Shown here piece by piece: positions 278-34,390 of a DNA stretch of 64,000 nt; within the stretch, counting starts at the first letter, position 1; the number at the start of each line of letters is the position of its first letter. The notes under the pieces are model-generated. The model searched no databases and had not been told where the DNA came from. It saw only the letters and a list, made by a program, of their open reading frames with translations. The DNA is from Sipunculus nudus (Eukaryota; Annelida; Sipuncula; Golfingiida; Sipunculidae). The DNA lies in assembly GCA_026874595.1 (NCBI GenBank), contig CM049313.1:56689159-56753158 (forward strand), in the 5' to 3' direction. The position numbers and the translations under genes are program-made.

Positions 278-1432
278 TTATGTCATTGGTTGGGCACCTC
301 TTTCACATGATGGTCTGACAACTTCTGGATGCAGAAACAACACAGCTGTCACTGTCCCATATCCTAGGATAACAAAGAAAAACTTTAACATTCGATGAGG
401 TTCATGATGAACTGTGTTGAATTCATGTGGTAAAATTTCAAAGAAAGTCACATACAGAAATGTTCCACAGGCCAAGCCTTGTAAAACTCCATTTATAAGA
501 CTAGAAGCTGTCATGTCTCTGGTAACATCTGTGATACCGATTCCTATTGCAATTCCAACTGGTGCTGTCATTGCAAACACTGCATTTGATTTTATTATAC
601 TTTTTATGGAAAGTGAGCTCTGGACAAGGTTTAATCCCAAGCTGAATGCCAATATAGACTTGTGTAAGCCTAATGCACCAAATATGCCTAATACACTGTC
701 CCTGGTAGGCTGTAACCCTACAGCCAGTCCTTCAAATATGGAATGCAATGAGAGTGCCAGCAACAGCATGACTGACCGGATTGGAGAGTGAGAGCTTGGA
801 TCTGGGTGAAAACCACTTTCTTCAAGCGACTTCTGATGGAGTAATGCTTCAGTATCTGCATCTGTGTCAGATCCAGCATCAATTTCATGATCAGCAGTTC
901 CATAGATCTGTGTGTCTCCATTAATACAATGCTGTACATTACTTTGTATATCCCCACTTCTGTTTACTCCATCTGTGACAGGTTTCCTGGCTCTTGGGTT
1001 GGAGAAATGTGGTGGAGAATCCGTAGTTGACACAGAATCTGATTTTGAAGGCATGAGTCGTTTATACCCACTCTGTTCTTGTCTGCCAGCTTTGTACTGC
1101 AGCACCAACTGTTCTGTTAACATGATGATAAAAAATCCAAAGCACATCACAAACTCAGCAAGAGGAAATGAAGTCGAACTTTCAGCACTGTCCAGGCCAT
1201 CAGCAATCTGAGATCGCACCTCGGGGAACAAGTCCAGTAAACAAGTTGCCAGGAACACGCCAGCTGCGTAACAGCTCAAGATACTAATAGCGATTTTATA
1301 ACGCCTGGCTTTAGATGGATCCCCTTGTTTTCGCAACGCAGACATTAAAAGAAGCGGGATCATGCTGAACAAGAAAGTCAGCCCCAACATGGCAAACAAG
1401 ACGATAACTTTTGTTATCTGTACGGACAACAT
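278..1432 (-). CDS. SLC39/ZIP zinc transporter, ZIP1/2/3-like, single exon
   Basis: This 384-residue protein is predicted to move zinc (possibly also iron or other divalent metals) into the cytosol across the plasma or an organelle membrane. It reads as eight membrane segments, roughly residues 5-30, 45-66, 90-112, 219-241, 247-270, 284-303, 311-335 and 349-368. A long polar loop (113-218) with scattered His/Asp/Glu separates TM3 and TM4. The family signature in TM4 is present: H230, then SIFEGLAVGLQ with E234 and G235. TM5 carries H257-K258. These polar TM4/TM5 residues form the metal path in ZIP proteins. The length fits ZIP1-3 (about 310-390 residues). The start is the first Met and is followed directly by TM1. 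The frame has no intron and no break, so it looks functional. The ZIPII (ZIP1/2/3) assignment is firm; the exact orthologue is not. Confidence 0.93.
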   Translation of the reverse strand: MLSVQITKVIVLFAMLGLTFLFSMIPLLLMSALRKQGDPSKARRYKIAISILSCYAAGVFLATCLLDLFPEVRSQIADGLDSAESSTSFPLAEFVMCFGFFIIMLTEQLVLQYKAGRQEQSGYKRLMPSKSDSVSTTDSPPHFSNPRARKPVTDGVNRSGDIQSNVQHCINGDTQIYGTADHEIDAGSDTDADTEALLHQKSLEESGFHPDPSSHSPIRSVMLLLALSLHSIFEGLAVGLQPTRDSVLGIFGALGLHKSILAFSLGLNLVQSSLSIKSIIKSNAVFAMTAPVGIAIGIGITDVTRDMTASSLINGVLQGLACGTFLYVTFFEILPHEFNTVHHEPHRMLKFFFVILGYGTVTAVLFLHPEVVRPSCERGAQPMT

Positions 1433-1791
1433 TTCGGGATCGGCTTCTCTTAAAGATTCTGGAGACGTAGAAGTCGTTACAGCAGCTGAAACTGTGGCTT
1501 CTCACGACCTTTCACGGTTCGCTCATCTCAGAGGGCTAATTTACCTGAAAGTTCTGCTTCAGTACGTTAGGACTCACACCTCCTCTCATCTTCGCTTCGG
1601 CTGTGTTGTCGTCTGCTCTGACTGGAGTCACGATCACACGCTCTCCATGCATAACACCTTGTTCATGTGACTCGAAGAAGCGTAATAGAATGTGTATGGA
1701 GAGTGGCCGAGAAAACAAACGCCCCATTGCATTCATTATACTCGGGTAAAATTTAATTCATCCGAATACCCTGCTTGGTTTATTTGACATA
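1433..1791. other. Upstream flank of the ZIP gene
   Basis: This is the presumed 5' untranslated and promoter side of the minus-strand ZIP gene. I see no further coding exon and no convincing TATA box. A non-coding leader exon cannot be excluded. Confidence 0.35.
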
Positions 1792-2603: not shown

Positions 2604-3028
2604 TGATCTAACGAACCTCCTGGACTTTAATTGTCGGACTGGTGGTCCAAACACGGTTGTTTTTTTCGCCGTAAAAAACGAGCATACTGCCACGCAAGAG
2701 GCCGCACCCTGAACGTTTGTCTTTTTACCAGGCCAAAACAGACTGCAGCTTGCAGGACAATCACCAGCATTACCGCCCGTTATGCTAGCCAGGAACGTTT
2801 GCTAACAACGTCAGGAAGCATTAAACATTACAAACACAGGTGATACATACGCAAGAACGGCGGAAACTGGCGAGTATTAACTTTCTTTGCTCTTAATGCC
2901 TTATACTGATACAATAAAACCCCGCCGTAACGAACGTTGTAATTCGGGCCAGACAAAGTGAATCGTTTAGTATCACTGTGTATATACTTTCTCGGCTATA
3001 GCCTGTATGGACAATCAAGGCCTGAAAT

Positions 3029-6000: not shown

Positions 6001-7204
6001 GGAAGGCCTGATCCTCAAAGGCACACAAATCATAATACCAAAGGCACTCAGGCAACAATACTTACAAAACATACATGAAGGTCACCAGGGCATCACCAGG
6101 TGCCAGCAAAGAGCAAAGTCCAGCATTTACTGGCCTGGGATAAACAAAGATATCGAACAAATCACATCACTGTGTGCGCCTTGCCAAGAACACCAGGCAT
6201 CTCAATCAAAACAGCCACTAGAGCAAATTATTCCAGATGTGCCAAACATACCCTGGCATACGCTGGGGACGGACCTGTTCACGCTAAACGGTAGAGATTA
6301 TCTCATAATCGCCGATTACCATTCAAAATTCCCCCTTGTGGAAAGGTTGGACAAAGATACAACCAGCAAAACAATCACCGAGTTGACAAATAAAGCTTTC
6401 TCACTCTTCGGAATCCCCAACACTATCATATCGGATAACGGACCTCAGTTCATTGGAAAGCAGTATAAAACAATGGTTCAGCAATATGGCATCAATCACA
6501 TCACCAGTTCGCCATTACATCCCAAGTCGCACGGTTTCATAGAAAGAATGATCAGAACCATCAAATCATTGATTACGAAAACGCCTCAAAATACAGATTA
6601 TGCCATCCTTGTTTATCGCACTACTCCACTAGGTCCGCAGATGCCATCACCTGCAGAAATCCTATTCAAACGACAAATCCAGTGCAACATGCCCATACAC
6701 ACGAAAGCATCCGTGACCGACGAATACAAAGTAAAGATGGCAGACATGCAAGGCAAATCTGCCAACAGATACAACCAAACCAGCTCTGACTTATCAGACC
6801 TTAGTATGAACCAACCAGTTTTCTACCAGGACGTCGCCCAACGAACATGGTCACCAGGAGAGGTCATAGGCATTGGGCCTGAACCTCGTTCATACACAAT
6901 AAAGTGTAGTACAACAGGAAGGCACTTGAGACGAAACAGAGTACTAATTAGGCCGAGATCAGTTACGTTCTCTGAAGAGAGAACACAGAAACTAAACTTC
7001 ACAACACGTTCAACGCCAGCGACTGTTTCTAACTTGACGCCAACTTTCCAAGAGCCTTTCAAACCAATGAATACCTCAGTTATGCCATCAGGCACCGGCA
7101 CCATCTCGAGACCCGATATTCCCCAAACGCGAGAGAAACCAAGAAGCACTACTCGTTTTGGCAGAGTAATCAAACCACCTGAACGCCTGATTGAACAAAT
7201 GTAA
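3029..7204 (+). CDS. Gag-Pol polyprotein of Ty3 element 1 (single 1391-aa frame)
   Basis: This is a capsid, protease, reverse transcriptase, RNase H and integrase polyprotein for retrotransposition. The Gag capsid occupies about residues 20-200. Two CCHC zinc knuckles follow (C223-C236 and C243-C256), then a basic stretch. The aspartic protease motif DTGA starts at D360. The reverse transcriptase has IADD with D657/D658 in place of the commoner YxDD. RNase H begins near D804 (QVDAS). Integrase has the HHCC zinc site from H1016 and the catalytic triad D1082, D1136 and E1172 (D-D35-E spacing). Gag and Pol share one frame with no stop or shift, so Gag must be released by protease cleavage or made in excess some other way. 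The start at 3029 has an A at -3 and a G at +4. All catalytic residues I can check are present. Confidence 0.95.
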   Translation: MASGDSTSATYVCVNDLAGIKPPSFNWEASELPQQFKGFRRYCELMLSTPTFASKNGREIVNYILLWMGPQAVEIYDNWTHLSETQKETPSDVWAAFQTYFEPKSNFRLSRFQLRDMKQQPNEPIDSFITRLKVQAQKCNFDTQAAMEDNLIDQIIKGLAHGPVRKQLLDHDANKLTLDKALDITRTYEATQTHLQQFENTATVGAIQKHTTSRRVQSQFNACYFCGGPRHRRDDCPAKDQKCNRCGKIGHWGKVCRNSRRGQSRNRNDMNEKPRGQDRRSRSPKRRIRHNSRNGDRRVNSVDVTEPYNQLPADFESLTFNTVSVKIDSSYTGIQETEAYATIQIQPYPGRQTNLQGKADTGAQGNIIPLRTFKAIYPTFINKQGFPTNTQPSDVELIAYNGTAIQQYGTINIPCQYQRTTWQDTIFYVAETTGPVIFGLPTCTSLGLVTMNCAMNFCSSQTQNGDKPVSSLQELKEFYPDRFSGLGKFPGEHKLVLSAEAEPVIHPPRRAPVQLQQKIKDELERMQSLDVIRPVQEPTDWVSSITYVQKADGSLRICLDPKHINEALKRAQHHTPTLEELTHRFSNAKVFSKLDAKSGYWCVQLDPASQLLTTFNSPFGRFCFKRLPFGLKTSQDVFQKAMDQILEGLPGVVSIADDITVFGADEKEHDRNMHGLMKRARERGLVFNPNKCIIKADEIPFFGNIYSKDGVRPDPAKVQAIKDLKAPGNVTELQSFLGMVTYLAPYVPHLSKHTAPLRQLLQKEIEYQWHPEHEASFDQIKNLICSAGTLAYFDPNKPTVLQVDASQEALGAALTQDGRPIAYASKRLSETEKRYANIERELLACVFGAERFHTYVYGKPFVIQSDHRPLEMISKKNLTAAPARLQRMLLRLQKYDFDIKYIPGKQMILPDSLSRLPNESNTKDTEINLNLQVCFVQFSQPRLIELREATRNDEQLNVLMKYIINGFPEKRKDAPQLVRDFWPFRDELSIEEGLILKGTQIIIPKALRQQYLQNIHEGHQGITRCQQRAKSSIYWPGINKDIEQITSLCAPCQEHQASQSKQPLEQIIPDVPNIPWHTLGTDLFTLNGRDYLIIADYHSKFPLVERLDKDTTSKTITELTNKAFSLFGIPNTIISDNGPQFIGKQYKTMVQQYGINHITSSPLHPKSHGFIERMIRTIKSLITKTPQNTDYAILVYRTTPLGPQMPSPAEILFKRQIQCNMPIHTKASVTDEYKVKMADMQGKSANRYNQTSSDLSDLSMNQPVFYQDVAQRTWSPGEVIGIGPEPRSYTIKCSTTGRHLRRNRVLIRPRSVTFSEERTQKLNFTTRSTPATVSNLTPTFQEPFKPMNTSVMPSGTGTISRPDIPQTREKPRSTTRFGRVIKPPERLIEQM

Positions 7205-9930: not shown

Positions 9931-10198
9931 TTAGTCTCGGGCAATGTCTATCCTGAGGTCGCTGTAAGCAATTTGCCATCTGCCATGGACTGGGTTGTAG
10001 CCTCCACGGCCAACAGAGGACGCCTCTTGCGTGAATGTCACCCGAAAAACCGGTCCAGATTGTTCTGTCCGACCCCAGGTGGTTGTGGACCGACTGGCGT
10101 CAAATATACTTCTGGCCACTCTGACGAATTCAGGGGCACTGGCAGAGCTGTCCCGATTTCCATTGAAAATCCTTTCTGTGGTTATTCCATCCTCATAC
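9931..10198 (-). CDS. Cyanophycinase-like gene, exon 7 with stop
   Basis: This exon encodes residues 311-399 and a taa stop (9931-9933 on this strand). This C-terminal tail has no motif I recognise and is probably specific to the eukaryotic proteins. The acceptor is attttag. Confidence 0.82.
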
Positions 10199-13017
10199 CT
10201 AAAATACATAAGTAAATATGTGGGAATATATAATACCTTTTAGTGCATCAAATGCATTCACTAATGAAAGTTGTCATCTGTGTGTTAATTTTACGTACTT
10301 TCTTTATGGACAGATTTTCTTAGGGAAATTTTGCATATCAAATTACGTTTAAATGAATATTTAACAGAATTTTTAAAAACAACCATGGATTTTATCCTCT
10401 CGATGATCCGTGTCTTCGTTAGCAAAATTGATATATAACCTTGGTCATGAACTTTTTTTCTGTTTGATTAATTATAGCTATGGTCTAAACAAAAGCCAAC
10501 GAGCAGCCTCGTTGCACATGAATGCGAGTGTGTGTGAAGTTGCGAATCCAGGATTTAGACGTAAATGTGCACCCAAGGACGACTTATGACAAAACCTAAA
10601 ACCTAAAATAAAGTTCCAAGTTCCGGAAAAGGGGGTATAAGCCGCAAAAAATGGTCTAAAACCTTGAAAAAGGTTTCGACGGCTGAAGGGGGGGGGGGGG
10701 GGGGGGGAGGGGTTCAGCATCCCAAGACCTCCCACCCCCTATCCGCTTCTGATGTGTATTATTAAAGAAATTCCATACCAGGCCGAAGCGCCACCATTTA
10801 GTAATCAAAGAATCATAGTTAAGGTTGCCATGATGTTTCCGTGCTTTAAAAACAAAACTATATTAACATAAGCATAAAATACACATAGATAAACAAAATA
10901 CCTTTCAGGAGAGAGGCTCCTCTTCCATGACGCGAAGTTGACGTCCATAGTATTTAAGTCGATGACGTCACCGTCAGTCAGGTAGTTGGCACGGACATTG
11001 CTGATGGACCAGTAACCGCCTGTACTGCCGGAAACTGCCGAGGTCAAATCTGGAATGAACACACCGTTCTCCCCGACTACCTGCTCCATGGAAAATAGGC
11101 TATGTTAGAACATTGAATACATTTTGAGAAATGTTATCATCCGTTCAAAGAATAGGGCTTCTTTTTGTCAACGTTTGTATCAACGTACAAAAAAAATTAT
11201 ACACAAAAAATATTCTAAATATAAAATAAAAAAAGATAGGCAGGCAGCCCCCTTTGTTAGGCCCGACAGTCATGGCACATGGGTTTTCAGGTGACTGCCC
11301 GAACCATTAATTGTTACGTCAGCAGTGTCACCATCTGATGGCTCCAGTAGTAGACATATCAATAAATCAGAAAGCGCGTCCTCGGTTGTTATGCCATGGC
11401 TTAACACAAGGGCTTCTTGCCTTACTCTCTCAAATATTACGTAAATAATTAAGAAGTGGACCATATAGTGTGAAAAATGCTAGGTAAATGTAAGATAAGT
11501 GATAGTTATATGGAAATGACCCAGTAAAGTAACAAATTTAACCGAAATCTACTCTAATGGCAATGCAAGCGCCCGTGGAAAAACATCCAATTTCGACCGA
11601 CCATCCGCTGTTTGCTTCAGTTATTGATATCTCATTCTAATTTAGCGATTACCGATTTATAATTACGGATAAATCGGAGAGGTTTTTATGTTAAATTAGA
11701 ACCCACCATATGCAAAAATGTTTCCATCAAACTGAACAATTATCTCATTGTAGATAATAAATAAATACTGTTGCCTGAATAATGAGGATCATATTGATTA
11801 ATTGCTGAACCCTAAACACTGCACGTGTGTATTTAAAATTTATTCTTAGGCACTGTTACACTGTACTCTGTCTGACTGTCTGACCTGTCCCTGGGCGTTG
11901 CTGCCGCCAACATTGTCCACGAACAGAGCCGTGTTCTCATCAACGCCAATACCACGGGTCGCCGCATTAGATCGCCCCCTGGTGTCCGATATCAAAACAA
12001 TCAAACGTCCCTCTCTGCCCCTTTCGCTGGAACAATCAAACGCCTCAGGTGAGCCAAATACACTGTGAATATTTATTTTTCGCTGCGCGCTGTGAATTCA
12101 CGTTGAACTTGAATTGTAGTGCTGTATCTATACGCATCGTTTACCTAATATCGCCGTGTTATTGGCATATTTAATAAAAAGTTTCAAATTTTCACTTTAA
12201 TTTATGATTATGATGCAACAATGATCATTTCATTATCAGGTGACTCTTATGTGGTGAAACAGTCATAACAAATATAAATATTCATTATATTCATATACAT
12301 TACCAAGCACAACATTTTCAAATTTTCCCCATTAGCTGCATGGGCTATTGACAGTAACGAACTGTCATTTAGATATCAAAGGGAACCTGAAAGTTTCTGC
12401 TGAGATTTTACCACCAAAAAGGCGAAATAGGGACCTTCGTTTCCAAGTCAAACGTTTACATTACTGGCGACAGGAACAGTCGAAATGTTCATCAAGAGAA
12501 AATAAAAGGAATTTAAGCTGATTATTTGGCTGATTTTTAGGCCAGGTTGGTTTGCCAAAGCATGTTGAAACTACATTGATTAAGGAAGAACAAATTCTTT
12601 GATGAGTAAGGAAACTTGTGTTACCTGAAATGCGTGTCAGTGATAAATCCATCCAGGACCCGGATCCCTCCATCTGGATTAAACTCCACGTCATCCCTGC
12701 CTGGAGCGGGAGCCGGATAAGCTCCGTACCTCAAACCATACCAGCTCATCCCTCCTGCACACAAAGATATAACAGGCCAATCAGAACGCTTTTCTTGATA
12801 CGCTGACCAATCAACACCATTTATGTAGCTTCTGTGTTCAGGTATGACATTTCATATCCACGCACGTTGGCATTTGTTTCACTGTATTATATACAATATT
12901 GGTTAATGACAAGCATCAAAGGATAAAAACGATTTTTACCCTTGTCTCATAGTCCTTGAAAATGTAAGAGTTTAACAAATATTAGAGGTGACATAAAACA
13001 TTATATTTTAACGTTTC

Positions 13018-13081
<64 letters not shown>

Positions 13082-16000
13082 TATATCTAGATTGAGAATT
13101 ACTGCGCTTAAAATTCTTCACAAAAGTTTAAGGATATGAATAATACTGAAACATGTAACTGGCTTATAAATTTACAATATTTACCTTTAAGTTTTATATT
13201 TGATTTAGTTTGGAGCTTTTCAGAAAAAAATAATAATGAATAGTTTAAAGGATTGAGGGTGTTGCAACCCACTATAACCCCCTGCATGGACCCGGCGTGA
13301 ACAGACATATTCACATAAACACACGTAAAGGACAGATCTTAACCGCTCTTTTGTACCAAACGTAGGAATGCTAAACAATAGAAGATTCAGTAGTAACCCA
13401 TGATCATTGGAGCTGACGTCATCACGGCAGTTCCGGCGCTGCTTCCTCCGATGACCGCCCCGGCCTCGTATCGAGCACGAATGGCGGCCAGAGCGGGGGA
13501 CTCCTCTCCGCTATTGTAAAAGCTGGAAAAAGAGACGGATGACAGTTTACTATTCAACACCGAAAGGGATCTTCATATCATCCGATTACTCTGATCACAG
13601 GCGCTTGATATCTATTAGTGTACGTAGATTTCGGTTAGATTTGATACTTTTCTAGGTCATTTCCTTATAACTACATGTATTAGTTTTACTTATCCGACAT
13701 TTTCTTAGCGTGTTTCACGCTCTAGTTCCATCTCTTTATTATTTCCGAAATATTTAGTAAATAATAAAGATATGGATCCTATAGTGTGGAAAACGATAGA
13801 AAAATGTTAGATTAATAATAGTTATAAGGAAATGACCCAGAAAAATAATAATAAAAAAACTAAATCTACACTAATAGCAATTCAAGCGCATGTGCCCTGA
13901 TTATAGAGAAGGCTTCTGTTTTTATTTATTTTTTAACACACGTTTAAATGTTATCTTTACAGATCAAACATGCTCATGTCAGCATGTAAGTAAGACCGGG
14001 ATGGGGATCAGCACAACACCAGTGTTGACTTCACATTTCTTTATTGCTACAACAATGCAACTAGCAGGAGGCATAAGGCTGGTCTTGTCTGGTTGGGCTT
14101 TCAACCCTACCCCTTTTATCCCTGTCCAGAGGGGGGCAAGGGTTCCAGCTCTGACTCCCTGCCATGGTATGCATAAAATTAATATTACAATATACAAAGT
14201 GACCAATAAGGTAATGCAGACTCTGTGAACATCTTTCTGTTGACTAAATATGGTAAATGAGGTGACTAGCACTGTACAGCTTGTGTCCGCTGTCATGCCA
14301 CAGGAATGTGGGTACCCTGCTTACTCAGCCGAGGTCAGCTTCAAGGCGTGGCCCTTAGTGCTGAATAGAATTTACTTTACAAGAATACTCTGTTCTATTT
14401 CCTTTATATTAAATATATTTTCAAGTATAAACATTTATTTCATATTCTATAACAATTTTCAATAAGTTAAGATTCTGTATAAAGATTGTAATATTACATT
14501 GACTTTTAATCCATGAAATTACTTACTGTTAAGTTAATATAGTTATTAGTCACATTTTAAATGACAGCACATTTCATTTGGTTATATAAGCAACAATTAA
14601 GAATTAAGATCCAGAGATATTATTTACATGAATTTTAGATAGAAGATCTGGTCGGCCTACATAAAAAGATGCTCCGAGGGACGATATATTACCGTTTACG
14701 AAAAAAATAAATTTCAATGCGGAGACCGATGGCTTTAACTGCATTAATTGACTCAGGCTCAAGCTGGTTTTCAACGTCTGGTTAAAATGGCGTGTGAGCA
14801 TGAGTTGGCGGTTAATTTTATAACACGTGAACAGTCGCTGATGGGTCAGACATAAGCACTGGAATGTACACAAGTTGAAAACTGAATTACACGGATGTTA
14901 ATAATATAACTCCTACAGATAGTCTAGCCTACATTTGTTCATATTATAAATGACGGTAGTACCATTCGACCTTTTCACGCAACCGCTCTGTGACCTCGTC
15001 TCGGATATGCCGGTGTTTTGGTCTCGAACTGTCGGGCAGAATGACAAATATGTTCTAAGGAATTACATGGATTCCGTGTAATATTCATCATATTTAATCC
15101 AAAAACCTGAGGAAGTGGACAATATTTCGCCATGGAAAATTGAAGCACCGTCAGTTAAGACTACGTAAACAAAACAAATACGTGTAATATGCTGGTTGTT
15201 TGATAATATAAACATAACTAATTGGACATACGAGTTAACGATCCTGGCCTGATCACCGCCACTAAAGAAAAATCCAGTCATTGAGTTGATGAGGTCGACA
15301 ACTCCCGGATCACTGTTTGCGCCAGTGTTACCCTCATGGACGGGGATCCACCGCGCGTCTGCGGCGCCGTATGTGATGAGATGGTTCACGTAGAAGGACG
15401 CGCTGGACTCGGGCGTGGACGACGCCGCCGAGACAACGCCGATCCGAGCCACCCCGGAGCCACCCTGGAATAGAGATCAAGCCACGACTCTCACCCTCTG
15501 TACAATTAAGAACTAGGGACCCATTGGTAAAGACTCACTGTTTAAGAATATACCACATTAATTAAGCCACAGTGACTTAGTTGGAATTTACAAGAAGAAT
15601 TCACTGTATGGATGCTATGTTCCGCGTATTATGTTTTGATATCACAGGTATGTCCTGCATTACACTGACATCTGTACACGCGACCCAACGGTCATTTGAT
15701 CTCGTTCGAAATACTCTGGACCATTGTGGATAAAAAGTAAAAATTTCGGCTGAAGTACAGCATAAGTGTAATGTTGTATTGTTCAAACCATCCAAAAAGG
15801 GGAAAATACCCGTTATGGCTAACAAAAATTTAGTCATCATAAGTGGCGCTACATCCCTCCTGCATACACATGCACGTCACATGATCAAAATTTTATATTC
15901 AACACAGAAATCAGCAAATATTGCATTAAGGTCTCTGAAGCTACCATAAAAAATGATTAAGTTCATTTGATTCTATTCACATAATGGAATGATTCAATTT

Positions 16001-17699
16001 TACAGAAGGGCAGAATTGTTTATGTGTCTGATTTGAATAGGAAAAAGTGAAAAAAAAAATGTTTAAATTAAGAGAAACGAGGTCAATATTCGATCAATGT
16101 GCCTGTTAAATGTGCTAAAGTCTTTTGTCCGTCGTTTCTCCGCCGAGTCGCCTTGTTCTTATATCTCGGCATCCGTCAGTCAATAGGGCACCGTTAAATG
16201 CACAGTTTTGAATTAGACTTGTATATACCTAAAAATCACATGAAGTTCCAAGGAAAGCTCCATAGATACGCGAAATCAGGGTATGGTCATCTATATTTTG
16301 CCAGTTAAAGATTAATTCATGATTTTGAGTATCCTGAAAGTCAGACTCTTCTATATGTTCAAGGTTAGTGTGTATAGATATTCTGTGTTGTTTCATAACA
16401 AGGTGCCCCACTCTCACCTCTAAAACTGTCAGCATGACAAATCTCATAATATGATGTAGCTATCAGCTACAAATATTACATTTACATGGATTATATAGCT
16501 GGTATACTTATGTAAGCCGCAGGTAGTGCCACCTGCTTTAAAGAACCATTTTTTGTATTCCAGGTAAGCTTGCATGACTACAGTTCAGCTTTCATACCAT
16601 TCATACCATGGTGTTAACTATTTCTTAGAGAAAGTGCAAATGAACTGTTATGATTTTGATGAAATTATTCGTAATATAGTTTTTACGAAACTGCCTAATT
16701 TCGCTTATTACTATTTTTTATGATTTCTAGTGTGTAGGCCTACATTCTGTTATATCTTTTGCCAGAAGGTGTTGGGGTCAGGGTTGGGTCCAAATACTTT
16801 TAAAATAATCGATTACAAATACAATTACTTTTAAAAATAATCGATTACAATTACAATTACTTTTGTGTTTTCAAAAAAGGAATCGATTACAATTACAAAT
16901 ACCATTTGAAGTAATTGGAATTACTTTTGCAATTACTTTTGTGCTTTCAGGGGATTAACATTGTGATAGTGACAAAAAACAACTTGGTATTACATTGTTT
17001 ATTTTCAATAAACACACATATCAAAATCTGATAACAAAAATGCATCACACAGTGGTGAATTTACTCTATACAATTTGAACATGGGTCTTTCCAAAATCAT
17101 TACGCATTGTTACATATTTGTAATTTGGTGTAGACATTTCTCTGCTCATGTTGACTCCTGGATGTTTAGTCTGAAAAAATGTGAACATACTCATCAGGGT
17201 TGGGTTTAGTTCAATTTTTATGTAAACATTACTTTTAGTTTTATTTTATTATTTTGCTATTGCTATTACTAATTTACTATTACCACAGTTTCTCATCTAT
17301 TACTTTTAAGTGACATTACTTTATTACTTAACTTGATAACAAACCAATTTGGAATGAGACATTTTTTAATTTACTTAATTATTACAAAAAATGTTACATT
17401 TTAATACTATCTGTCAAATAGTGGTGCAAGGGTATTTTCAAATTATAAAAATTAAGCATTAATTATCAAATAATTGAACTGTCAACTAAATTAACAACCT
17501 TCTCATAAGTATGACTGTTTATATGACTTTTATGTAAATATGATTCTCTATTCTCATCACTGTCTAGAATGAATTCGAGCAATATAATCTATTGTCAAAA
17601 CTTAAAGTAGTTATATTGAGTGTTGTGGAAAAATCCATCAGAGCCTGGATAATTAATACTATACAAACACAAGTCTCCTGACAAAAACAAATTATATGT

Positions 17700-17772
<73 letters not shown>

Positions 17773-20700
17773 ATATATGTAACGGCTCCGATAACACGTA
17801 TTATATTATCAGGTATAACTGAATTGCCTGGCAGGTATCATATCATCAGCTTGGACTAACTGGTCAATGAATTGCCCCGCAGTTGCCTTGGTTGCCTTGT
17901 TTGCTTGGTTCCTCATTACTCAACCGGTTTTCCGTTGTTCCTATTGTTTTCATTCGGACAATGACACGAACCGCGACGCGAACCCTGCCCAGCCTCAGTC
18001 TCGTGACATAGAGAACTTGTCAGTATTCGTTCTCTGCTTGGCAGGTAAGGACTGTTTTTACTAAACTCTTAAACTGCGATAAACTCTATCATTTAGCCAA
18101 TTCATTACTTTCAGTATATCACGTACGTACTATCATGTAAACTGTATATTCCATATTCTAATTGCACACGTTACTGGTAAATTCATACTTGTTGTACGCA
18201 TGGATATTTGTATTCATGGTAATATGCAACGATATCTTAAAATGTGGTTCCTAAATATATAGGCTCATTTGTATAATATGTAATGTGTTTTCTTGTGTAA
18301 TGAATACCAAGAAATGTGCAAATGTATATTCTGTATATTCATGCCATTTATTGTATTTTTGCACCATATAGAAATGTTAATATGAAATGTTTAATGTGAG
18401 TATTCGTTCTCTGCTTGGCAGGGACTCCGGCTTGGAGGACTCCAGATTGGTATATATATACGGCTGAATAAACACTTTTATATATATACATCGCCTTGCC
18501 TCGCTTTTCACTCACGCCGGGTGACTTTGGCTCTTGCCGGGAACACCCGTTACATTTTGGTGCCCCGAGTGAGGACCATCTCTCCTGTGGATCGATGTCC
18601 GTGTGTGCGTCTCGACGACTCTATGTCCGTCTGTGCGTCTCGACGACGATATCACAGGAGATGATTATTTTCTGAACTTCCATTCCACCGGTGGATATTA
18701 TTTAATTGGTGTCTGTGCACAACACCATAACACAGGGCCAGAGTGGACTTTTCGCGGGCTCGCTTGGACACAGATTTTGCATGCATGCGTGTTCGTCGCT
18801 TCGCTTCGCTTCAGTGCCTTGCACTGTAAACTCTGCTTCGCCAATGTGTTCTTCGCTCGTGCATTCCTGGACTATTGTCACGCTTTTCGCCGTACGCGGA
18901 GACATCGTTTAAAGGGCCCAGACGAACGTCACTCTCTTTGGAGAAGATAAACGGTAATTGTTTGACATTTTCCTTGTACTGCATGAACTTTTCTTTTTGT
19001 ATTTGCTATTGTCAGCATGGCTATGGACTTTGTGATTAATTGTGTATAATATTGTTGCATGTTTTGTAATTGAAGTGATCATTTCTTTTGTTAGCTGTAA
19101 ATTATTTTTGCAGTTTATTATGGAGAATTTTATGCATGTAAAGGGTAATAGCTTTGGCCCGGTTTGAGGTTATCGTGATTGGTCACGTGATGTTCCATTG
19201 TCTAATGTCAATAGGTCTTGTGGTCTGTGTAATGTAAACAGTAGCATTGCAACTGAATACTAACATTTGCCCTTAAACCTGCTGGTATTTGACCATTGAC
19301 AGATGACTTAAGATAACATTCATCATTTCTTTATTGTCTTTAAAGATCACATTTTATCTCCTCTATTCATACATTCGCATTAAAGAGAGATGGAGGGTAA
19401 ATCAGTTGACATAACACGGGTCGTCTCCATACATGGACTCCCTTCTGATGTCAACGAATCTGAGATTATTGAAAACTTCTCACAAATTGAAACTCCTACT
19501 CATGTTTTGTTTGTTCGAGAAGCACATACTGGTCGTTGCACTGGCCGCGGGTTTATAGTTTTTGAGACTAAAGACACTGCCAAAAAGGCCATAGATAAGA
19601 TATCAGGTAGCTTTTTAGAAAGGGATTCAAGCATCAAAATCTCTCTTGAACATGCTAGGGATTTCTCCATCACTGAGGTGTCTCATCTGATTTCAAATAA
19701 GTTGCTCGATTCGTTAAATCCTTTTTTTTCATTTCAGGTACCCGAAGGTAGACGTATCTCAGAGATAGTAACTAAGCTCGATTTTCTTTCAGATTTCGAG
19801 ATAAATCAGATGTTTGTGGAGTTTAAACACCGAAGGGGTGATGTTATACAGGGGCCATCTGGGGCTACTGGTTACAGTGTTATCTCTCCAAAACTGCCCC
19901 CATTTTCAGGGAATCAAGATAAAACCGGTAGCTACGAACAATGGCGTTCCCATCTCAAATCTATGATAAAAGCTGGCGTAACACCAGAGCCTCAGATTTT
20001 GTCAGCGATTCATCAGTCTGTTAGGGGGACAGCAGGAAATGTTCTTTTACATATGCCCGATGAGTCCACTCCCACAGATATACTGAATAAATTTGACAGA
20101 TACTTTGGTAATGTGCTCCCCACAGAGGTTCTTATACAGCAGTTTCACTCATGTAAACAAGATCCTAAAGAGGATATTGTCAACTGGAGCTGCAGGCTTA
20201 CTAGACAGTTAGACCTCATAAACCAGAGAAATCCTACTCCTCATAGGGAATATGAGCGACTTCTTCGGTCTAGATTCTGGAATGGGTTGTATTCTAAGTA
20301 CATTAAGGAGGCTTTAAGACACAGATATGATAATGGGGAAGAACAGGATGAACTCTTTGCAGCAGCACGAGCCTTAGAGTCTGAACTTGTACATCACTCA
20401 CATATGAGTGACAAGAAAGTTGCTTCATCCAACCAAATTTCTCAACAAGGGGTTAAAACTTTGTCAACTGAAAGCTCTGTGCTTGAGCAGATAAATAACA
20501 AACTGTCAATCCTAGAGAATCGCTTATCGAAACTTGAACGATCTCAAATGTCCAAACCAAACAAACCATCACAAACTCAGGCTGAAGTTCGTAACAGTAA
20601 TACTGTCTCGGACGAAGTCTTTTGCTCTCGTTGCCTTCGTCACACCCACACTGTTGACAAATGCCATGCCAAACGAGACAAAAATGGGAAAATCCTAAAA

Positions 20701-23700
20701 AACTAAGAGTCGCCCGTGATCATTCGTGGGAGAACACGGGGTCAGGTTATAAAATTCCCACAACAAACGTATGTACTGATAATGTCCCTCTTGTAGGTGA
20801 AACACAGGTTGTTGACATGTTTGCAGATGGTATTAACTGCCAGGGTCTTTTAGATGCAGGTTCCCAGGTCTCTACCATTGCTCAATGGTTTTATGAAAAA
20901 CACCTCAACCCGTCAGAATTAGTCCCTGTGGAGGAGATGATGGATCTCCGGCAACTGGACGGCCAGCAGGTAGAGTACTGTGGTATCATCGCTGTTGACC
21001 TTAAATTTCCTGAAATAAATTCATCTCAGACATTCTCTGTGCCAGTATTGGTAATGAAAAACACACATTTCAATGCCAGTGTTCCATTTTTAATTGGTAC
21101 GAATGTGCTAAACTCTTGTTTAAATTTTCTTCAGACAAATGCTGGTCCAAATTTTATTCAAAGTTTACACATGCCCCAACCATGGAATATTGCATTTAAA
21201 TGTTTGACAAACAGGGAAAAGAAATCAGTGAATAAAGGAGGTTATGTATTATCCACCAAGTCTACAGTAATACCTGCCCACAGTGATGTTACTATAAATG
21301 GTTTAACCAGAGGTTGTACAACAGGCAAGACCCTTGTTATAACTGATGTGAATGTTCTCCACAGGTTACCAACTGGATTGGTTCTACTTCCTTGTGTCCA
21401 AGAGCTTGATTTGTCGGTAGGTACAAGTCACAGAATTCCAGTACAGGTCAGGAACTTAACATCACATTCCATCATTATTCCATCAAAAATGATACTCTGT
21501 AACATACAAGAAGCTAGCCTCGTAACCCAACTGACACAATCACCTGACCCATCTGATCAACAATTCTTAAACATGTTCAAATTTGGTCAAGATTTGTCAC
21601 AATCTGAATCTGAACAACTACAACTTCTGTTGCTTAAATGGAAACACATATTTTCCTTAAGTAATACAGATATTGGTCACACTAGTGTAGAAAAACACCG
21701 TATCGTGTTGACAAAAGATGAACCATTTAGAGAGCGATATCGTCGCATCCCTCCACAATTATATGATGAGGTAAAACAACATCTGAAAGAAATGCTAGAG
21801 TCAAAAGTAATTAAGGAGAGCAAAAGTCCGTTTGCTAGTCCAGTAGTCCTTGTCAGAAAACCTGACGGAACTCTTCGTTTCTGTATTGATTATAGAACCC
21901 TGAATAGCAGAACTGTTAGAGACTGAAACCTTAGATTCTTTGATTGGCGCTCGTTACTTTTCCTCTCTAGATTTGAAGTCTGGTTACTGGCAGGTTGAGT
22001 TAGCCGAAGAAGATAATGATAAAACAGCTTTTACAGTAGGCCCTCTCGGTTTTTATCAATGGGAAACCATGCCATTCGGCTTCGTGAACGCCCCTGCCTG
22101 CTTCCAAAGACTGATGCAGAAGACTATGGGTGATCTCCATTTAAAAGAATGTCTTCTCTTTCTTGACGATATAATCGTATTCCCTACCTCCTTTGAAGAA
22201 CACCTAAAACGCTTGAATAACATCTTTCAGCGTCTGCATGACGCAGGCCTAAAACTAAAACCTTCAAAGTGCCAGCTGATGCAAGATAAAGTAAAATACC
22301 TAGGACATATAGTCTCAAAAGAAGGTATACATACTGACCAGAGTAAAATCAGCGCTCTTAAAGAATGGCCTATACCTAAGTGTGTCAGTGATGTACGCCG
22401 TTTCTTGGGCTTTGCGAGTTTCTATGCTAAAATCGCGAAACCATTACATGACTTACTGAAAGGCCACCATATTCAGAATCAAACAAAAACCAGGAATCGT
22501 ACCAGAAAGAAAGTTCCATCTCAAACAATATATAACTGGTCAAATAACCACCAACTAGCATTTGATCAATTAATAGGACTACTATCTTCTGCTCCTGTAC
22601 TAGCGTTTGCAGATTTCTCTCGTCCGTTTATTGTTCATACTGATGCAAGTTTTGATGGGATCTCTGATATTCTGTACCAAGATCAAGATGGCCAGAAAAG
22701 ACCAATAGCTTATGCGAGCCGAAGCCTAACACCATCAGAGTCTCGGTACCCTATTCATAAGTTAGAGTTCTTAGCTTTAAAGTGGTGTGTAACCGATAAA
22801 TTTAAAGAATATCTGTATGGATCACGGTTCACAGTGTTCACTGATAACAATCCTCTAACTTACATAATGTCCTCCGCAAAATTAGATGCAACAGGTCAAA
22901 GATGGGTATCTGAATTGGCTAATTACGACTTTAATATTCAATATAAAGCCGGCAAGCATAACATCGACGCCGATGCACTTTCGAGAATCCCTCGGCTTCT
23001 AGCAGAAAAGAAAAACCACAATCAATGTATTACCAATGATGTAGTAAAAGCTGTTTGTCAATCAGTGACCATACCATCACCTGTAATATGTAGTCTTTCT
23101 TGTGACCAATCCAAAGCTGTTCCATCCACGGATCCTGTCAATTTGCTCGGACAAACACGATTAAACGTAGCAAAGGAACAACTTCTGGATTCGAATCTGA
23201 ACCCATTCATTGTCCATTTCAGAGACGGTAAGGTCATAAACAAGAAAGACTTGACTCATCCTGATCAAATAATTCTTTTCAGATGTATAGATAGCCTTGT
23301 GCTGCGGGATGACATACTCTATCGTAAACGAACACTGAACGGCAAAATTCAGTATCAAATGGTAATACCTAGCAGTTTGCGACAAGTCGCTTTATCTGGT
23401 ATTTATGACGATGTTGGGCATCTAGGTCGTAATCGGTCTGTCCATCTAGCCCATGACCGATTTTACTGGCCAAAAATGTCTAAAGACATAGATTCATACA
23501 TTAAGAATTGTCCACGCTGTATAAGGCGGAAGTCCCCTCCAGCAAAAGCTCCTTTAGTACCTATAACATCCACACAACCAATGGAGCTCCTATGTGTCGA
23601 TTATCTTAGCCTTGAGCCATCTACAGGTGGAATTGAAAATATTCTGGTCATGACCGATAATTTCACACGCTACGCTATGGCAGTTCCTTGTCGCAATACT

Positions 23701-26700
23701 ACGGCAAAGACTACAGCTAAAATACTATTTGACACATTTGTCCAACATTATGGCTTTCCAGCCCGCATCCACAGTGATCAGGGCAGACAATTTGAATCTA
23801 AAATCATCAAAGAACTATGCAGACTAGCTGGTATCCATAAATCACGATGTACACCGTACCATCCAATGGGGAATGGGCAAACCGAAAGGTTAAACCGTAG
23901 TTTAATCAGTATGTTGGGTACTCTTGAGGAAGAGAAAAAGAAAAACTGGAAAGAATACGTCAGGGCTTTAACTCATGCCTATAATTGTACGAAAAATGAT
24001 GCAACCGGTTATACACCTTTCTATTTAATGTTCGGTCGACATCCACGCCTCCCTATTGATCTAGTACTTGGGACCAACAACAATCCTAACCATCAAAATT
24101 ACAACACATATGTTTCCGATCTAAAAGACCAACTTTCTTCTGCCTATGATATTGCTCAACGTGTCTCTTTATCATCCAGGTATCACCACAAACGATTGTA
24201 TGATAAACGTGCTCGCAATGCGGTGCTGGGTATTGGTGATCACGTCTTAGTACGAAAGGTAGGGATCATTGGGAAACAGAAACTGGTCGATAAATGGGAA
24301 AAGCAGGTGTATGAGGTATTGGAACAACCCAATAAGGATATTCCAGTATATGTTGTTTGCCCCTTGGGTGATAAAAAGCGTACTCGCACTCTGCATCGCA
24401 ATCTGATCCTTCCATATACAGGATTGCCCGTCGACCCTACACAAAAACCAGTTTCCACAACACACAAACCAATTATTACATCATCAGTGTCAGGGTCGGA
24501 AGACTCATCAACAGATGACGACCCCATTTTCACTATAACTCCAAATAATCGTCCCCACATGAGTAGTTCTGAGGATGTGAGCGAGTTGCATTTAGAACTT
24601 GAATTATCGGATGATACAGATGATGATGCAATTGCGTCTGATCACTCTAATACATTCCTGATAAATGGTTCTACTGATGATTGCAATGCAAATGTTGATA
24701 CCGTAAATACTACAGGTCTTGATGATGACGTCACTGGTGTGTTAAACGATGACGCCAAAGGTGATAATGACAATATATCACAACTACACGATGACCATGA
24801 CGTCATCTCAAGGCATGATCATAATAATGATGGTAATAGCGCCCCAATATCTGATCAGAGTGGGGATCCGGATGTTAATCCAGTACGTAGATCTACCCGA
24901 GAACGACGTATGCCAGAACGTTTTGGGGACTATGTACTAAACGGGTGATAATATTTTTAAACAAGTGCATGTGTTAACATAAGTATGTTTAGGATAAGTT
25001 CCTTGCGTAAGCTACATGACTCGTTCTGAGATTTGACGAGTCAGTGATATCATTATACGATTGTTTTTTTTGCGTTATGCTGACTTTCTCCACTGCCACC
25101 AGTTTCTGGGTTTTTCACTTTCATATATGTATAACTCATGTGAACATAATGTTCCAATATAAACATCTATCCGAAATCCTACTAGAGGCCGTCCACTGCT
25201 AATGCTGTCCTGCGCGACCTATCCTTCTTTGCAGTTAGTGTCGGGACGCCACTTCTCTACTGGGGGTAGCGTTTGGTATATGGTGTGGATGATGTGCTGT
25301 TGGTATGGTGTGGTGGATCTGAGTCACGCCGGGTGACTTTGGCTCTTGCCGGGAACACCCGTTACATATATATAAGAGAGAATTACTTTATGTTAAATAA
25401 AATATTTCTCTCTACGCTCTTTTTCAAAATAGATATGGATTCATTGTTGTAAATTTGTAATATATGATGTTCGTGTCAAAACAATAATACACTTTCTCTA
25501 TCTATTCCTATATTTATGGATGTTTTAGTCATCAAGACCCAGATAGAGTTAATTAGGTAGCTTGTGCTGAATCCTGCGTTCCAGTACTCTCATGCAATTT
25601 GCACCAATGGTTATCATTTTTTATATTAACTTGCCTTAACAATCTGTACATCATATAGGCGATCACTCGAATAGAAAAAAGCCTGTTAAGAAATATCATC
25701 AACAGGGAATGGAAAATAAGTGTACATGTATTAATCTAAATACAAATTTGCCTTCTGTTGCGATTATTATTACTGTTTCAGCTCATATTTTAAGGTCTAT
25801 TTCTCTTACTTACTACTATTACCTCATGATTGCCCATTAAACTGAGCCTCATAATAACAGAGTAAAGCTTGGCTGCATGATGAGGACCCCAGTGCATTGG
25901 GCAATCACTAATTAAGACCATCTTAGTGATCAAAGGCCAGACTGTTGGTAATCTCTGTATGTGAACTGATCTATTCAGTAAATTAATTAGCACCATGCAC
26001 TAGATCCCTAGTATCTGACAGCTGGCAAACTTGTGTCCTGACAGTGGGTTGTAGACCAGGTGATAAACCATACCTGCATTATCTGGCCACCTAGCAGGGC
26101 ATGTGAAGTAATAGTTCTATAGTGATATGAGCATTGTGCTTTGTGTACTTTGAAACTATAAAAGATTTTTTTTTACATTTAATAATACCATCACTTTGAA
26201 TGCTGTAATTGTATATTACTCTCACATTTTACACAGAACTTGAAAGTAATTGAAAAGTAATTGTTCAAACAAGTACTTTTCGAAAGTAATCGATTACAAG
26301 TACAATTACTTTTCAGGATTTCAAAAAGTAATCGATTACAAGTACAATTACTTGAAAAAGTAATTGTAATTACAATTACTTCAATTACAATTACTTATGG
26401 ACCCAGCTTTGGTTGGGGTTATGACCCATAAAGGTTATCCCTACAGATTTGCTTACTATTTAATAATAGATAAAAAGAATGACTCATAAAGGAAGATTAT
26501 GGTATGAAAAATGACAAAGGAATTCACTGTCTCTGAATGTTCTGTTTATCTTGGGTTATCTCAATCCAAGGTTTCAAAAATTGAATTGTATAGCATACAG
26601 AATGTCTATGGGTGAAATTGTCACCGAAACTTGGTTAATCTTATACTTAAAAATATATGCAGTACAGGAACTGTTGTGCATAGTTTCCAAAAAAAATATT

Positions 26701-27129
26701 ATGTCCATAATGCATTCTGAAGTAATAAGAAGGAGCTGACAAATGTATATCGTTCACACACACACTCACACACACATATATATATATACATGTGTGTGTT
26801 ACTTTTTCACAATTTCTCGACAAAACGATATAAAATATACCATTTTAAAATAAATTTGATTGCTGATGTTATTACTGAAGAGAATTAACCATACAGGCCT
26901 TTACTAAGAACTGATTTGTGAGAAAGCGAACGCAGGGGACATTTGTAGATCGAATCACGTGCCCGACAACGCGGATGCTTTGATGAAGATAGATAAGGCT
27001 ACTTACGGACCATTCAACAAACCGGGACCACACGTCTGTATTTTCATCAGCCATGCCGCCACCCATCATGACCAACCTCTTGGAGGCCGCAGTGGCCACA
27101 ATGAGTGAAAAAAATATCCAGCAACACAT
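9931..27129 (-). CDS. Secreted cyanophycinase-like protein (peptidase S51), seven exons
   Basis: The coding exons in transcript order are 27129-27007, 15464-15232, 13522-13398, 12754-12625, 12026-11885, 11080-10902 and 10198-9931. All junctions are GT/AG, the phases agree, and the sum is 1200 bases (399 residues plus stop). Residues 1-16 form a signal peptide (start [12 protein letters not shown]). The S51 landmarks are GGGMADEN (23-30), [19 protein letters not shown], the nucleophile motif GSSAG with S147, DTHF with H202, and GIGVDENTA (229-237). Known family members cut beta-Asp-Arg dipeptides from cyanophycin. A role in digesting cyanobacterial food or polymer from symbionts is inference. 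The usual DQHF is DTHF here, so the substrate may differ. Intron 1 carries a hAT and a Ty3 insertion. The family call is strong; exact specificity is unknown. Confidence 0.9.
10686..10709. repeat. Poly-G tract in intron 6
   Basis: A run of about 20 G lies in intron 6 of the cyanophycinase-like gene; on the transcribed (minus) strand it is poly-C. Confidence 0.85.
10902..11080 (-). CDS. Cyanophycinase-like gene, exon 6
   Basis: This exon encodes residues 252-310 plus two bases of codon 311, with [17 protein letters not shown], the closing beta region of the S51 domain. The acceptor is gagcag and the donor gtattt. Confidence 0.85.
11466..11580. repeat. Single diverged arm of an intronic MITE family
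   Basis: The string gtgtgaaaaatg...gttatatggaaatgaccca...ctctaatggcaatgcaagcgc matches 13781-13895 with moderate divergence, in the same orientation. It lies in intron 5. Confidence 0.6.
11885..12026 (-). CDS. Cyanophycinase-like gene, exon 5
   Basis: This exon encodes residues 204-251, with [11 protein letters not shown] and [12 protein letters not shown], both typical of cyanophycinases. The acceptor is ttccag; the donor gtcaga is weaker than the others. Confidence 0.86.
12625..12754 (-). CDS. Cyanophycinase-like gene, exon 4 (DTHF histidine)
   Basis: This exon encodes residues 161-203 plus two bases of codon 204, ending in [10 protein letters not shown] with H202. The acceptor is gtgcag and the donor gtaaca. 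Confidence 0.88.
13022..13077. repeat. (AT)n microsatellite in intron 3
   Basis: About 28 AT units lie in intron 3 of the cyanophycinase-like gene. Confidence 0.9.
13398..13522 (-). CDS. Cyanophycinase-like gene, exon 3 (nucleophile)
   Basis: This exon encodes the end of codon 119 to residue 160, with [13 protein letters not shown] holding S147, the predicted catalytic serine. The acceptor is ttccag and the donor gttact. Confidence 0.88.
13592..13900. repeat. Hairpin MITE-like element in intron 2
   Basis: The two halves are imperfect inverted repeats. The left arm from 13592 (gatcacaggcgcttga, then ctaggtcatttccttataac) is the reverse complement of the right arm, about 13775-13900 (gttataaggaaatgaccca to ttcaagcgcatgtg). 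There is no coding capacity. A related single arm sits at 11466-11580. Confidence 0.65.
13901..15231. other. Remainder of intron 2, no supported feature
   Basis: This is intronic DNA of the cyanophycinase-like gene. Short open frames around 13.9-14.5 kb lack codon or domain evidence. Confidence 0.6.
15232..15464 (-). CDS. Cyanophycinase-like gene, exon 2
   Basis: This exon encodes residues 42-118 plus two bases of codon 119, including IGVVSAAS and [11 protein letters not shown]. The acceptor is ttccag and the donor gtatgt. It joins exon 1 in phase 0 across 11.5 kb. Confidence 0.9.
15465..16778. other. Intron 1 of the cyanophycinase-like gene, proximal part
   Basis: This is host intron sequence between exon 2 and the hAT insertion. 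No coding or repeat feature is supported. Confidence 0.6.
17701..17777. repeat. (TA)n microsatellite at the Ty3 insertion point
   Basis: This TA tract lies inside the hAT element, immediately left of the Ty3 5' LTR. TA-rich sequence also follows the 3' end at 25367. It makes the Ty3 target duplication unreadable. Confidence 0.88.
17778..18554 (+). repeat. 5' LTR of element 2
   Basis: This 777-bp LTR runs from tgtaacggctccg to cccgttaca. It contains an exact 24-bp direct repeat (18022-18045 and 18399-18422, attcgttctctgcttggcag core). The first copy runs into a consensus splice donor, cag|gtaagg. A short frame at 17867-18064 is not considered coding. Confidence 0.75.
18558..18575 (+). promoter_or_regulatory. 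Candidate primer-binding site of element 2
   Basis: The sequence tggtgccccgagtgagg starts three bases after the LTR end, with the expected TGG. The untranslated leader continues to 19389. Confidence 0.65.
19390..20706 (+). CDS. Gag of element 2: RRM-like domain + PNMA-like capsid + zinc knuckle
   Basis: This 438-residue structural protein would build the retrotransposon particle. Residues 10-90 look like an RNA-recognition motif: RNP2-like VSIHGL (12-17), RNP1-like GRGFIVFE (52-59), and a last strand SIKISLEHA. The capsid starts near LPPFSG (169-174), then [22 protein letters not shown] and LNKFDRYFG, the layout of PNMA/Ty3 capsids. A probable coiled coil spans 363-386 (heptad leucines and isoleucines). 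One CCHC knuckle closes the protein (C412, C415, H420, C425). PNMA proteins also combine an RRM-like N-terminus with a Gag capsid; that comparison is from family knowledge. Start: first Met, with a purine at -3. The frame is intact and ends directly after a frameshift heptamer. Confidence 0.88.
20697..20740 (+). promoter_or_regulatory. -1 ribosomal frameshift signal between gag and pol
   Basis: The heptamer A AAA AAC (20697-20703) is in the right phase of the gag frame and the stop taa follows at once. Nine bases later a perfect 6-bp stem is possible, cccgtg (20713-20718) with cacggg (20735-20740). The pol frame is -1 relative to gag and is open across this site. Confidence 0.85.
20704..21926 (+). 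pseudogene. Pol of element 2, first part: protease and start of reverse transcriptase
   Basis: This is entered by -1 frameshift from gag. An aspartic protease follows, with its catalytic motif as DAGS (20853-20864) rather than the usual DTG/DSG. The reverse transcriptase fingers follow, with [19 protein letters not shown] and CIDYRTLN. The frame stops right after TVRD at 21924-21926. The family normally has about seven more residues (an AYPLPRI-type motif) before ETLDSL, which here is found in another frame just downstream. A short deletion of about 20 bases is the simplest cause. It would make the pol product truncated and inactive. Confidence 0.85.
21940..24948 (+). pseudogene. Pol of element 2, second part: RT palm, RNase H, integrase
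   Basis: This 1002-codon open frame starts beyond the RT deletion. Residues are counted from 21940. The RT active site is FLDD (D76, D77). RNase H starts near D235 (HTDAS). The integrase zinc site is followed by D554, D613 and E649 (D-D35-E). A GPY-like C-terminal region follows, then an Asp/Ser-rich acidic tail ending [16 protein letters not shown]. The connection region reads [13 protein letters not shown], where relatives usually have several extra residues between FY and AKIAKPL, so a second, in-frame deletion is likely. The long open frame suggests the lesions are young. It is separated from its protease/finger half by the deletion at about 21925. Confidence 0.87.
24949..25323 (+). other. 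Region between pol of element 2 and its 3' LTR remnant
   Basis: This non-coding stretch lies where the untranslated region, polypurine tract and most of the 3' LTR should be. It shows no similarity to the 5' LTR that I can see. Confidence 0.55.
25324..25366 (+). repeat. 3' LTR remnant of element 2
   Basis: These 43 bp are identical to the end of the 5' LTR (18512-18554), including ggctcttgccgggaacaccc and the terminal gttaca. Nothing further upstream matches. Confidence 0.85.
26420..27006. other. Intron 1 of the cyanophycinase-like gene, distal part
   Basis: This is host intron sequence between the hAT target duplication and the exon 1 donor. A small (CA)n/(TA)n tract lies near 26755-26800. 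Nothing else is supported. Confidence 0.55.
27007..27129 (-). CDS. Cyanophycinase-like gene, exon 1
   Basis: This exon encodes residues 1-41: a hydrophobic signal peptide, then [18 protein letters not shown], the glycine-rich strand that opens S51 domains. It ends in phase 0 at a strong donor (gtaagt, 27006-27001). The 5' untranslated end is not defined. Confidence 0.88.
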
Positions 27130-33678: not shown

Positions 33679-34390
33679 TCCTTATATATATACCTGAGCA
33701 TTTACATAGTTAACTGTTTGCATGTGAAGTCACTCAGGAATATCAAATTATAATTAATTAATGAAGAATATTTGATCAACTACTTTCATAACACATTTTA
33801 TAGTCAACACACAACTAAGTTAGACTAATGATGTTTGACAAACTGAACTTCAAAGCAAGGCACACAAACAGCTGTGAGTCCTAACTTGCTTCTCATTACC
33901 AGAGTTCTTAACACCTTTGCACAACAAACTTACCCTGGGAGCATTAGACAGTGACCAGATAATTAATCTGTTGCAAACTGATCATCAAAGCAATATGTTA
34001 TGCACAGACAATTGTAGATCTAATCTTTCAGTCATCCAGTTCTTAACACTTTTTCACAACAAACACAGGAGGTTCAGTCACCCATGACTATTAATTAAGA
34101 TCATATTAGAACTAGCAGTAAAACCGGCAGATAAACAAAATTCAGTCATACTAATAATATTAAAAACGTATATCCCAATAATATTAAAAAGTCATATTAT
34201 TAGTAGCATTATAATATGCAATAATACAATAATAAGGAATTTTGAAGTGCAATATCCCTCTTCCTGTTTCAAAGATAACAATTATTTGTAAATAAATATT
34301 GTACATATTAATGAAAATAAGGAATTTGCTTTCAGAACATTGACTTTCACACCTGGGCGGAATTTAAAAATCTCTTTGGGCAACTTACAA

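Follow-up and report, generated by a model that had tools for sequence, protein, structure and literature searches.

The stretch analysed here, called the window throughout, comprises 64,000 nucleotides of the Sipunculus nudus genome (C8:56,689,159-56,753,158; C8 has 80,869,746 bases in a genome of 1,426,538,692 bases in 153 contigs) and contains no N. On its minus strand, seven joined exons running from position 27129 to 9931 were found to encode a protein of peptidase family S51 with 399 residues followed by a stop codon, and the reading frame is open throughout. Exon 1 (27129-27007) holds the start codon, with a stop in the same frame four codons before it, a predicted signal peptide of about residues 1-16 and the start of the S51 domain (GGGMADEN). 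Exon 2 (15464-15232) carries the GGDQ loop with the binding residue Q113, exon 3 (13522-13398) the GSSAG nucleophile elbow with the predicted catalytic S147, exon 4 (12754-12625) D200, T201 and the catalytic H202, and exon 5 (12026-11885) the binding arginines R206, R208 and R211 as well as the catalytic E234. The S51 core ends in exon 6 (11080-10902), where a C-terminal extension of the type seen in the extracellular cyanophycinase CphE begins, and exon 7 (10198-9931) contains the remainder of this extension and the stop codon.

All six introns follow the GT..AG rule with phases of 0, 2, 1, 2, 0 and 2, and their lengths are 11542, 1709, 643, 598, 804 and 703 bases in order. The coding sequence has a GC content of 55% whereas the introns show 30-38%. 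Intron 3 has a weak donor (GTTACT), yet its junction introduces no gap into the alignment with CphE of Pseudomonas alcaligenes strain MB-090714 (L013). The exons were checked independently by searching the window with bacterial homologues in tblastn (E up to 1). With the Tumebacillus homologue L004 every exon is found (E 1e-15 to 0.007), whereas L005 and L013 find six each, missing exon 1 and exon 7, respectively. Exon 1 is the weakest-supported exon, being matched by L004 with an E of 0.007 and by L013 with 0.005, and unmatched by L005. Since the bacterial homologues recover the exons and the junctions fit, the gene model of an earlier note made from the sequence, namely seven minus-strand exons with matching phases and an S51 protein of 399 residues, is borne out, and the motifs quoted in it are present.

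The protein scored 28.3 bits with Pfam PF03575 (Peptidase_S51) against a gathering cut-off of 23.9, which places it in this family. A sequence search of the PDB (E up to 0.001) retrieved three distinct sequences, each of which carries the label cyanophycinase. Because the genomes and plasmids searched are those of bacteria and archaea, the best matches there were bound to be bacterial. Among plasmids, 41 records match, the best being from Kitasatospora fiedleri with 40.5% identity over 88% of the query (231 bits; next row 104). The scan of bacterial and archaeal genomes matched 79 loci, led by Tumebacillus lacus (44%, residues 5-398) and a metagenome-assembled genome (MAG) of Herpetosiphonaceae (44%, residues 3-398), after which come Pseudomonas and other gammaproteobacteria, Tengunoibacter, a Clostridia MAG and Kitasatospora, with the cyanobacteria Nostoc and Calothrix at 35-36%. 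From the genome scan and a quick tree, relatives over nearly the whole length are present in five bacterial phyla. The CphE-type extension beyond the CphB-sized core is covered as well, because the alignments with L004 and L005 reach residue 398 of 399, and identity to L013 amounts to 173 of 375 aligned residues. Animal dipeptidase E was also considered for this protein and rejected, as the PDB search gave only cyanophycinases and no dipeptidase E, NCBIfam gave only cyanophycinase and no PepE match, and a dipeptidase E exon lies at a separate locus.

In CphEal, the enzyme of P. alcaligenes DIP1, Ser171, His224 and Glu251 are the proposed catalytic residues, Gln136, Asp222, Arg228, Arg230 and Arg233 are binding residues, and Thr223 replaces Gln173 of CphB (PMC3235067). 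L013, which comes from strain MB-090714 and not from DIP1, carries all nine with the numbering one lower. The alignment has shown that the window protein carries the same nine residues (Q113, S147, D200, T201, H202, R206, R208, R211 and E234). Thus, the S51 catalytic set is present, with S147 (in GXSXG), H202 and E234 aligned to S171, H224 and E251 of CphEal, and so is the CphE-type pocket, formed by Q113, D200, R206, R208 and R211 with T201 at the position where CphB has Gln173. In 35 bacterial rows, 55 columns are invariant and 45 nearly so; the window protein keeps 45 of the former and 24 of the latter. Further, the protein is most hydrophobic in the weakly supported exon 1, where a stretch of 12 residues from residue 1 has a mean hydropathy of 2.47, and values stay at or below 1.3 past residue 21. 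This stretch fits a signal peptide, and the protein is probably secreted; of the secreted enzyme with a signal peptide described in the earlier note, the leader agrees with the hydrophobic N-terminus, and secretion is suggested by homology. Neither a cysteine nor an N-glycosylation sequon is present in the mature protein.

A careful tree with two support measures was built from 41 rows, i.e. the window protein, 36 bacterial CphE-type proteins and four outgroup rows, of which L086 and L087 score as CphB type and L084 and L085 are taken as CphB type. The window protein and the 36 CphE-type rows are split from the outgroup by a 100/100 branch, and in these sets it belongs firmly to the CphE group. 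In the quick tree of 89 rows, it was paired with the Clostridia MAG (support 89). The cyanophycinase assignment of the earlier note therefore holds as to family and type, and homology, residues and tree support narrowing it from a generic cyanophycinase to a putative extracellular CphE. It is thus likely that the product of the gene is a CphE-type serine exopeptidase, secreted and transferred from bacteria, which would cut beta-Asp-Arg from cyanophycin. The observed basis of this proposal is the gene structure, the place deep in a chromosome-scale contig, the homology to CphE over nearly the whole length and the nine residues, whereas secretion, catalysis and transfer are predicted from homology. 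In the proposed course of events, a bacterial gene would have entered the animal lineage long enough ago for six introns to be gained. The protein would be exported, with His202 and Glu234 activating Ser147 for an attack on the poly-Asp backbone of cyanophycin, a polymer whose beta-Asp-Arg ends may be held by Gln113, Asp200 and Arg206/208/211. The beta-Asp-Arg dipeptides would then be released by a serine mechanism, as in CphE.

A possible counterpart comes from the abalone Haliotis discus hannai, for which a 2015 RNA-seq table lists the transcript Tsc23 as 'Cyanophycinase' (1804 bp, E 2e-79), with 1.77, 1.23 and 12.55 reads per kilobase per million mapped reads in large, medium and small juveniles, respectively (PMC4661900). 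The libraries were poly(A)-selected and the names were given by BLASTx against UniProt Metazoa, which implies that a metazoan 'Cyanophycinase' was present there by 2015 (PMC4661900). In that paper the word appears once, in the table, and reverse transcription PCR was consistent for 6 of 34 transcripts, Tsc23 not being one of them (PMC4661900). The primers published for Tsc23 translate to SSGVVD and YYSLRN, and these fit window residues 93-98 (DPGVVD) and 274-279 (YWSISN) in order and in frame; because 243 of 20,000 shuffled primer pairs fit as well or better, this is regarded as moderate support.

The gene lies at 56.7 Mb of a contig with a length of 80.9 Mb, in a genome of 1.43 Gb, and loose bacterial contamination is thereby excluded. 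Intron 1 harbours a retroelement with a Gypsy-type domain order (19384..24948, plus strand) in three overlapping frames, the third of which, the sole frame scanned, contains reverse transcriptase, RNase H and integrase, and this element is a host-genome signature. The dipeptidase E exon mentioned above (L083), located on C13 of the same genome, matches the Xenopus enzyme (PDB 7c9b) over 60 residues with an E of 2.9e-30, whereas its matches with two bacterial dipeptidase E sequences are well weaker (5.7e-10 and 7.2e-10). This exon is nearer to the Xenopus enzyme than to the bacterial ones, which supports an animal host. A bacterial contaminant or an assembly artefact, already contradicted by the six introns, the retroelement, the lack of N and the depth within the contig, is therefore given practically no probability; the earlier note had also argued against contamination, from introns and transposons. 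That note had further spoken of a filter feeder and of mollusc sequences; nothing in the window shows either. A decaying pseudogene or a set of mis-joined exons would agree with the weak donor of intron 3, the weakly supported exon 1 and the fact that no transcript of this gene was seen, which also counts against the secreted CphE proposed above. On the other hand, 399 open codons, the full set of nine functional residues and junctions that restore the alignment to the bacterial homologues stand against such a gene, and it is considered highly improbable.

Other observations that weigh against a transferred cyanophycinase concern the substrate and the origin. The score of 126.2 bits with the equivalog model NCBIfam TIGR02069 (cyanophycinase) falls short of its cut-off of 126.6, and the window protein is not assigned to it. 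This shortfall is weak counter-evidence, as five of the seven CphE-type comparators are likewise under the cut-off (98.2 to 121.4; L013 116.8), the other two being L005 (126.6) and L007 (129.3). A protein of Priestia megaterium reached 75.4, and two of CphB type reached 280.3 and 275.8; by these scores, the model would seem to be centred on the CphB type. The best sequence match in the PDB, 7uqv, is an entry titled 'pseudo-CphB', a reminder that the substrate is not fixed by fold and sequence. The window protein sits on a long branch (1.05 in the careful tree and 1.53 in the quick tree), has changed 10 of the 55 invariant and 21 of the 45 near-invariant columns, and lacks the 15-residue loop which L013 shows after window residue 61; owing to these three features the specificity may have shifted. 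Hence, the main rival is a descendant of CphE with an altered substrate, which would cut other beta-aspartyl (isopeptide) bonds, for example in isoaspartyl peptides of the gut or body fluid, or would serve defence or shell or mucus chemistry instead of feeding. Besides the branch, the loop, the changed invariant columns and the title of 7uqv, it is favoured by the expression values of the presumed abalone counterpart, in which tissues are not distinguished (PMC4661900). Against it stands that none of the nine residues published for catalysis and binding has changed, the three arginines and the Thr of CphE type among them, and this rival is rated unlikely, with a small but real chance. As for the origin, the careful tree places the window protein as sister to all 36 bacterial CphE-type rows (86/88) and not nested among them, and it is the sole eukaryotic row in the trees. 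Both this position and the prokaryotic content of the collections would agree with a vertically inherited eukaryotic S51 gene, whose relatedness to CphE would be ancestral and without any transfer. However, the sister position is not a firm result and carries a long-branch warning, and nested positions were not rejected by the approximately unbiased test (p 0.0964 with the non-actinobacterial rows, 0.239 with L010 and 0.157 with the actinobacterial rows). Moreover, dipeptidase E, the usual animal S51 enzyme, has its own locus in this genome, five bacterial phyla have genes of CphE type, and a secreted cyanophycinase of fungi has been described as acquired from bacteria (PMC3612039), so vertical descent is judged to be very unlikely. 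For these last three reasons, transfer from bacteria is the best explanation for the gene, its direction being suggested by homology. The bacterial origin that the earlier note called plausible has thus gained some support from the spread over five phyla and the distinct animal-type S51 exon, within prokaryotic collections; that note had looked to an S51 tree for nesting within bacteria, and the protein groups with CphE apart from the CphB-type rows but as a sister.

A digestive role of this putative CphE on cyanobacterial food is the most speculative part of the proposal, a guess which fits the published role of CphE in bacteria using exogenous cyanophycin. Extracellular use of the polymer has been described for bacterial communities (PMC10206079), and it is reported to be resistant to most proteases and to arginase (PMC3235067). 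It is judged about as likely as not that some animals digest cyanophycin themselves by means of a domesticated bacterial CphE with introns and a leader, an ability which is not described in the literature searched. If true, an invertebrate eating cyanobacteria could turn an arginine-rich, protease-resistant polymer into absorbable beta-Asp-Arg dipeptides, and a transferred bacterial gene would here plainly have a food function that can be predicted and easily assayed. Animal nitrogen nutrition would then be tied directly to cyanobacterial nitrogen stores, with a bearing on aquaculture, where beta-Asp-Arg dipeptides have been tested as fish feed supplements (PMC7318851). The kind of enzyme is known and animal members have already been named automatically, so it is not wholly new; no study of an animal cyanophycinase was found among the open-licence papers listed by searches with animal and other terms. 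A described, intron-bearing and chromosome-placed animal CphE with the nine residues did not come up there either.

Some features of the bacterial relatives were also observed. On plasmid 2 of Kitasatospora fiedleri (L001 188-8250), two CphE-type genes, the second of which lacks the N-terminal part as annotated, lie on either side of genes for an M20 peptidase, an amino-acid ABC transporter and a binding protein, and the set looks like a cyanophycin-use cluster. In Tumebacillus (L004 5146-5865, 9514-10968), the CphE-type gene adjoins an ABC transporter ATPase, and about 2.3 kb downstream lies a gene for an Orn/Lys/Arg decarboxylase, which would fit the use of released arginine. The cyanobacteria Nostoc sp. 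WHI (L018 5944-7359) and Calothrix PCC 7103 (L019 5926-7359) have CphE-type proteins with the C-terminal extension and N-termini that are hydrophobic by eye, and these are possibly exported cyanophycinases. The CphE-specific C-terminal part of L013 (residues 288-420) gave a confidently predicted fold, with a predicted local distance difference test score of 90.6, and no clear PDB match; it may act in substrate binding, in granule binding or in forming an oligomer.

Elsewhere in the window, the neighbouring gene has a large coding exon for a ZIP zinc transporter (278..1501, minus strand; PF02535, 217.9 bits), in which 407 codons are open and profile positions 3-320 of 323 are spanned. A retroelement at 3026-7204 (plus strand) has an unbroken frame of 1392 codons with reverse transcriptase, RNase H and integrase and a gag-like match slightly under the cut-off, and it is perhaps young. 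More retroelement pieces with integrase domains lie at 50475-51992 and 32800-33681 (both minus strand), and in the former the integrase precedes the reverse transcriptase, an uncommon order.

In comparison with known systems, CphB of Synechocystis (PDB 3en0, 7uqw) shares the S51 fold, catalytic triad and pocket with the window protein. However, CphB is a 27-kDa intracellular enzyme with Gln and not Thr before the catalytic His (PMC3235067), from which size and location it is taken to be without the C-terminal extension, and the CphB-type rows L086 and L087 lie across the 100/100 branch. The point common with animal dipeptidase E, an alpha-aspartyl dipeptidase (Xenopus, 7c9b), is peptidase family S51. 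The cyanophycinase reported as a bacterial transfer in Pyrenophora and other fungi is by its description, like the window protein, eukaryotic and predicted to be extracellular (PMC3612039); its best bacterial match, Spirosoma linguale (47%), is absent among the matches listed for the window protein. The characterised extracellular cyanophycinases are CphE of P. alcaligenes DIP1 and P. anguilliseptica BI (PMC3235067). Unlike CphE, the window gene is an animal gene with six introns, and the putative enzyme that it encodes has a long branch, misses the loop after residue 61 and shows no basic residue in the first 16 residues of its hydrophobic start. With CphE, for which L013 (420 residues) serves as a proxy, it shares the size class, a leader peptide as far as its hydrophobic start may be one, the GXSXG-containing S51 core, the Ser/His/Glu set, the C-terminal extension and the pocket of Gln, Asp and three Arg, with Thr in place of Gln173 of CphB.
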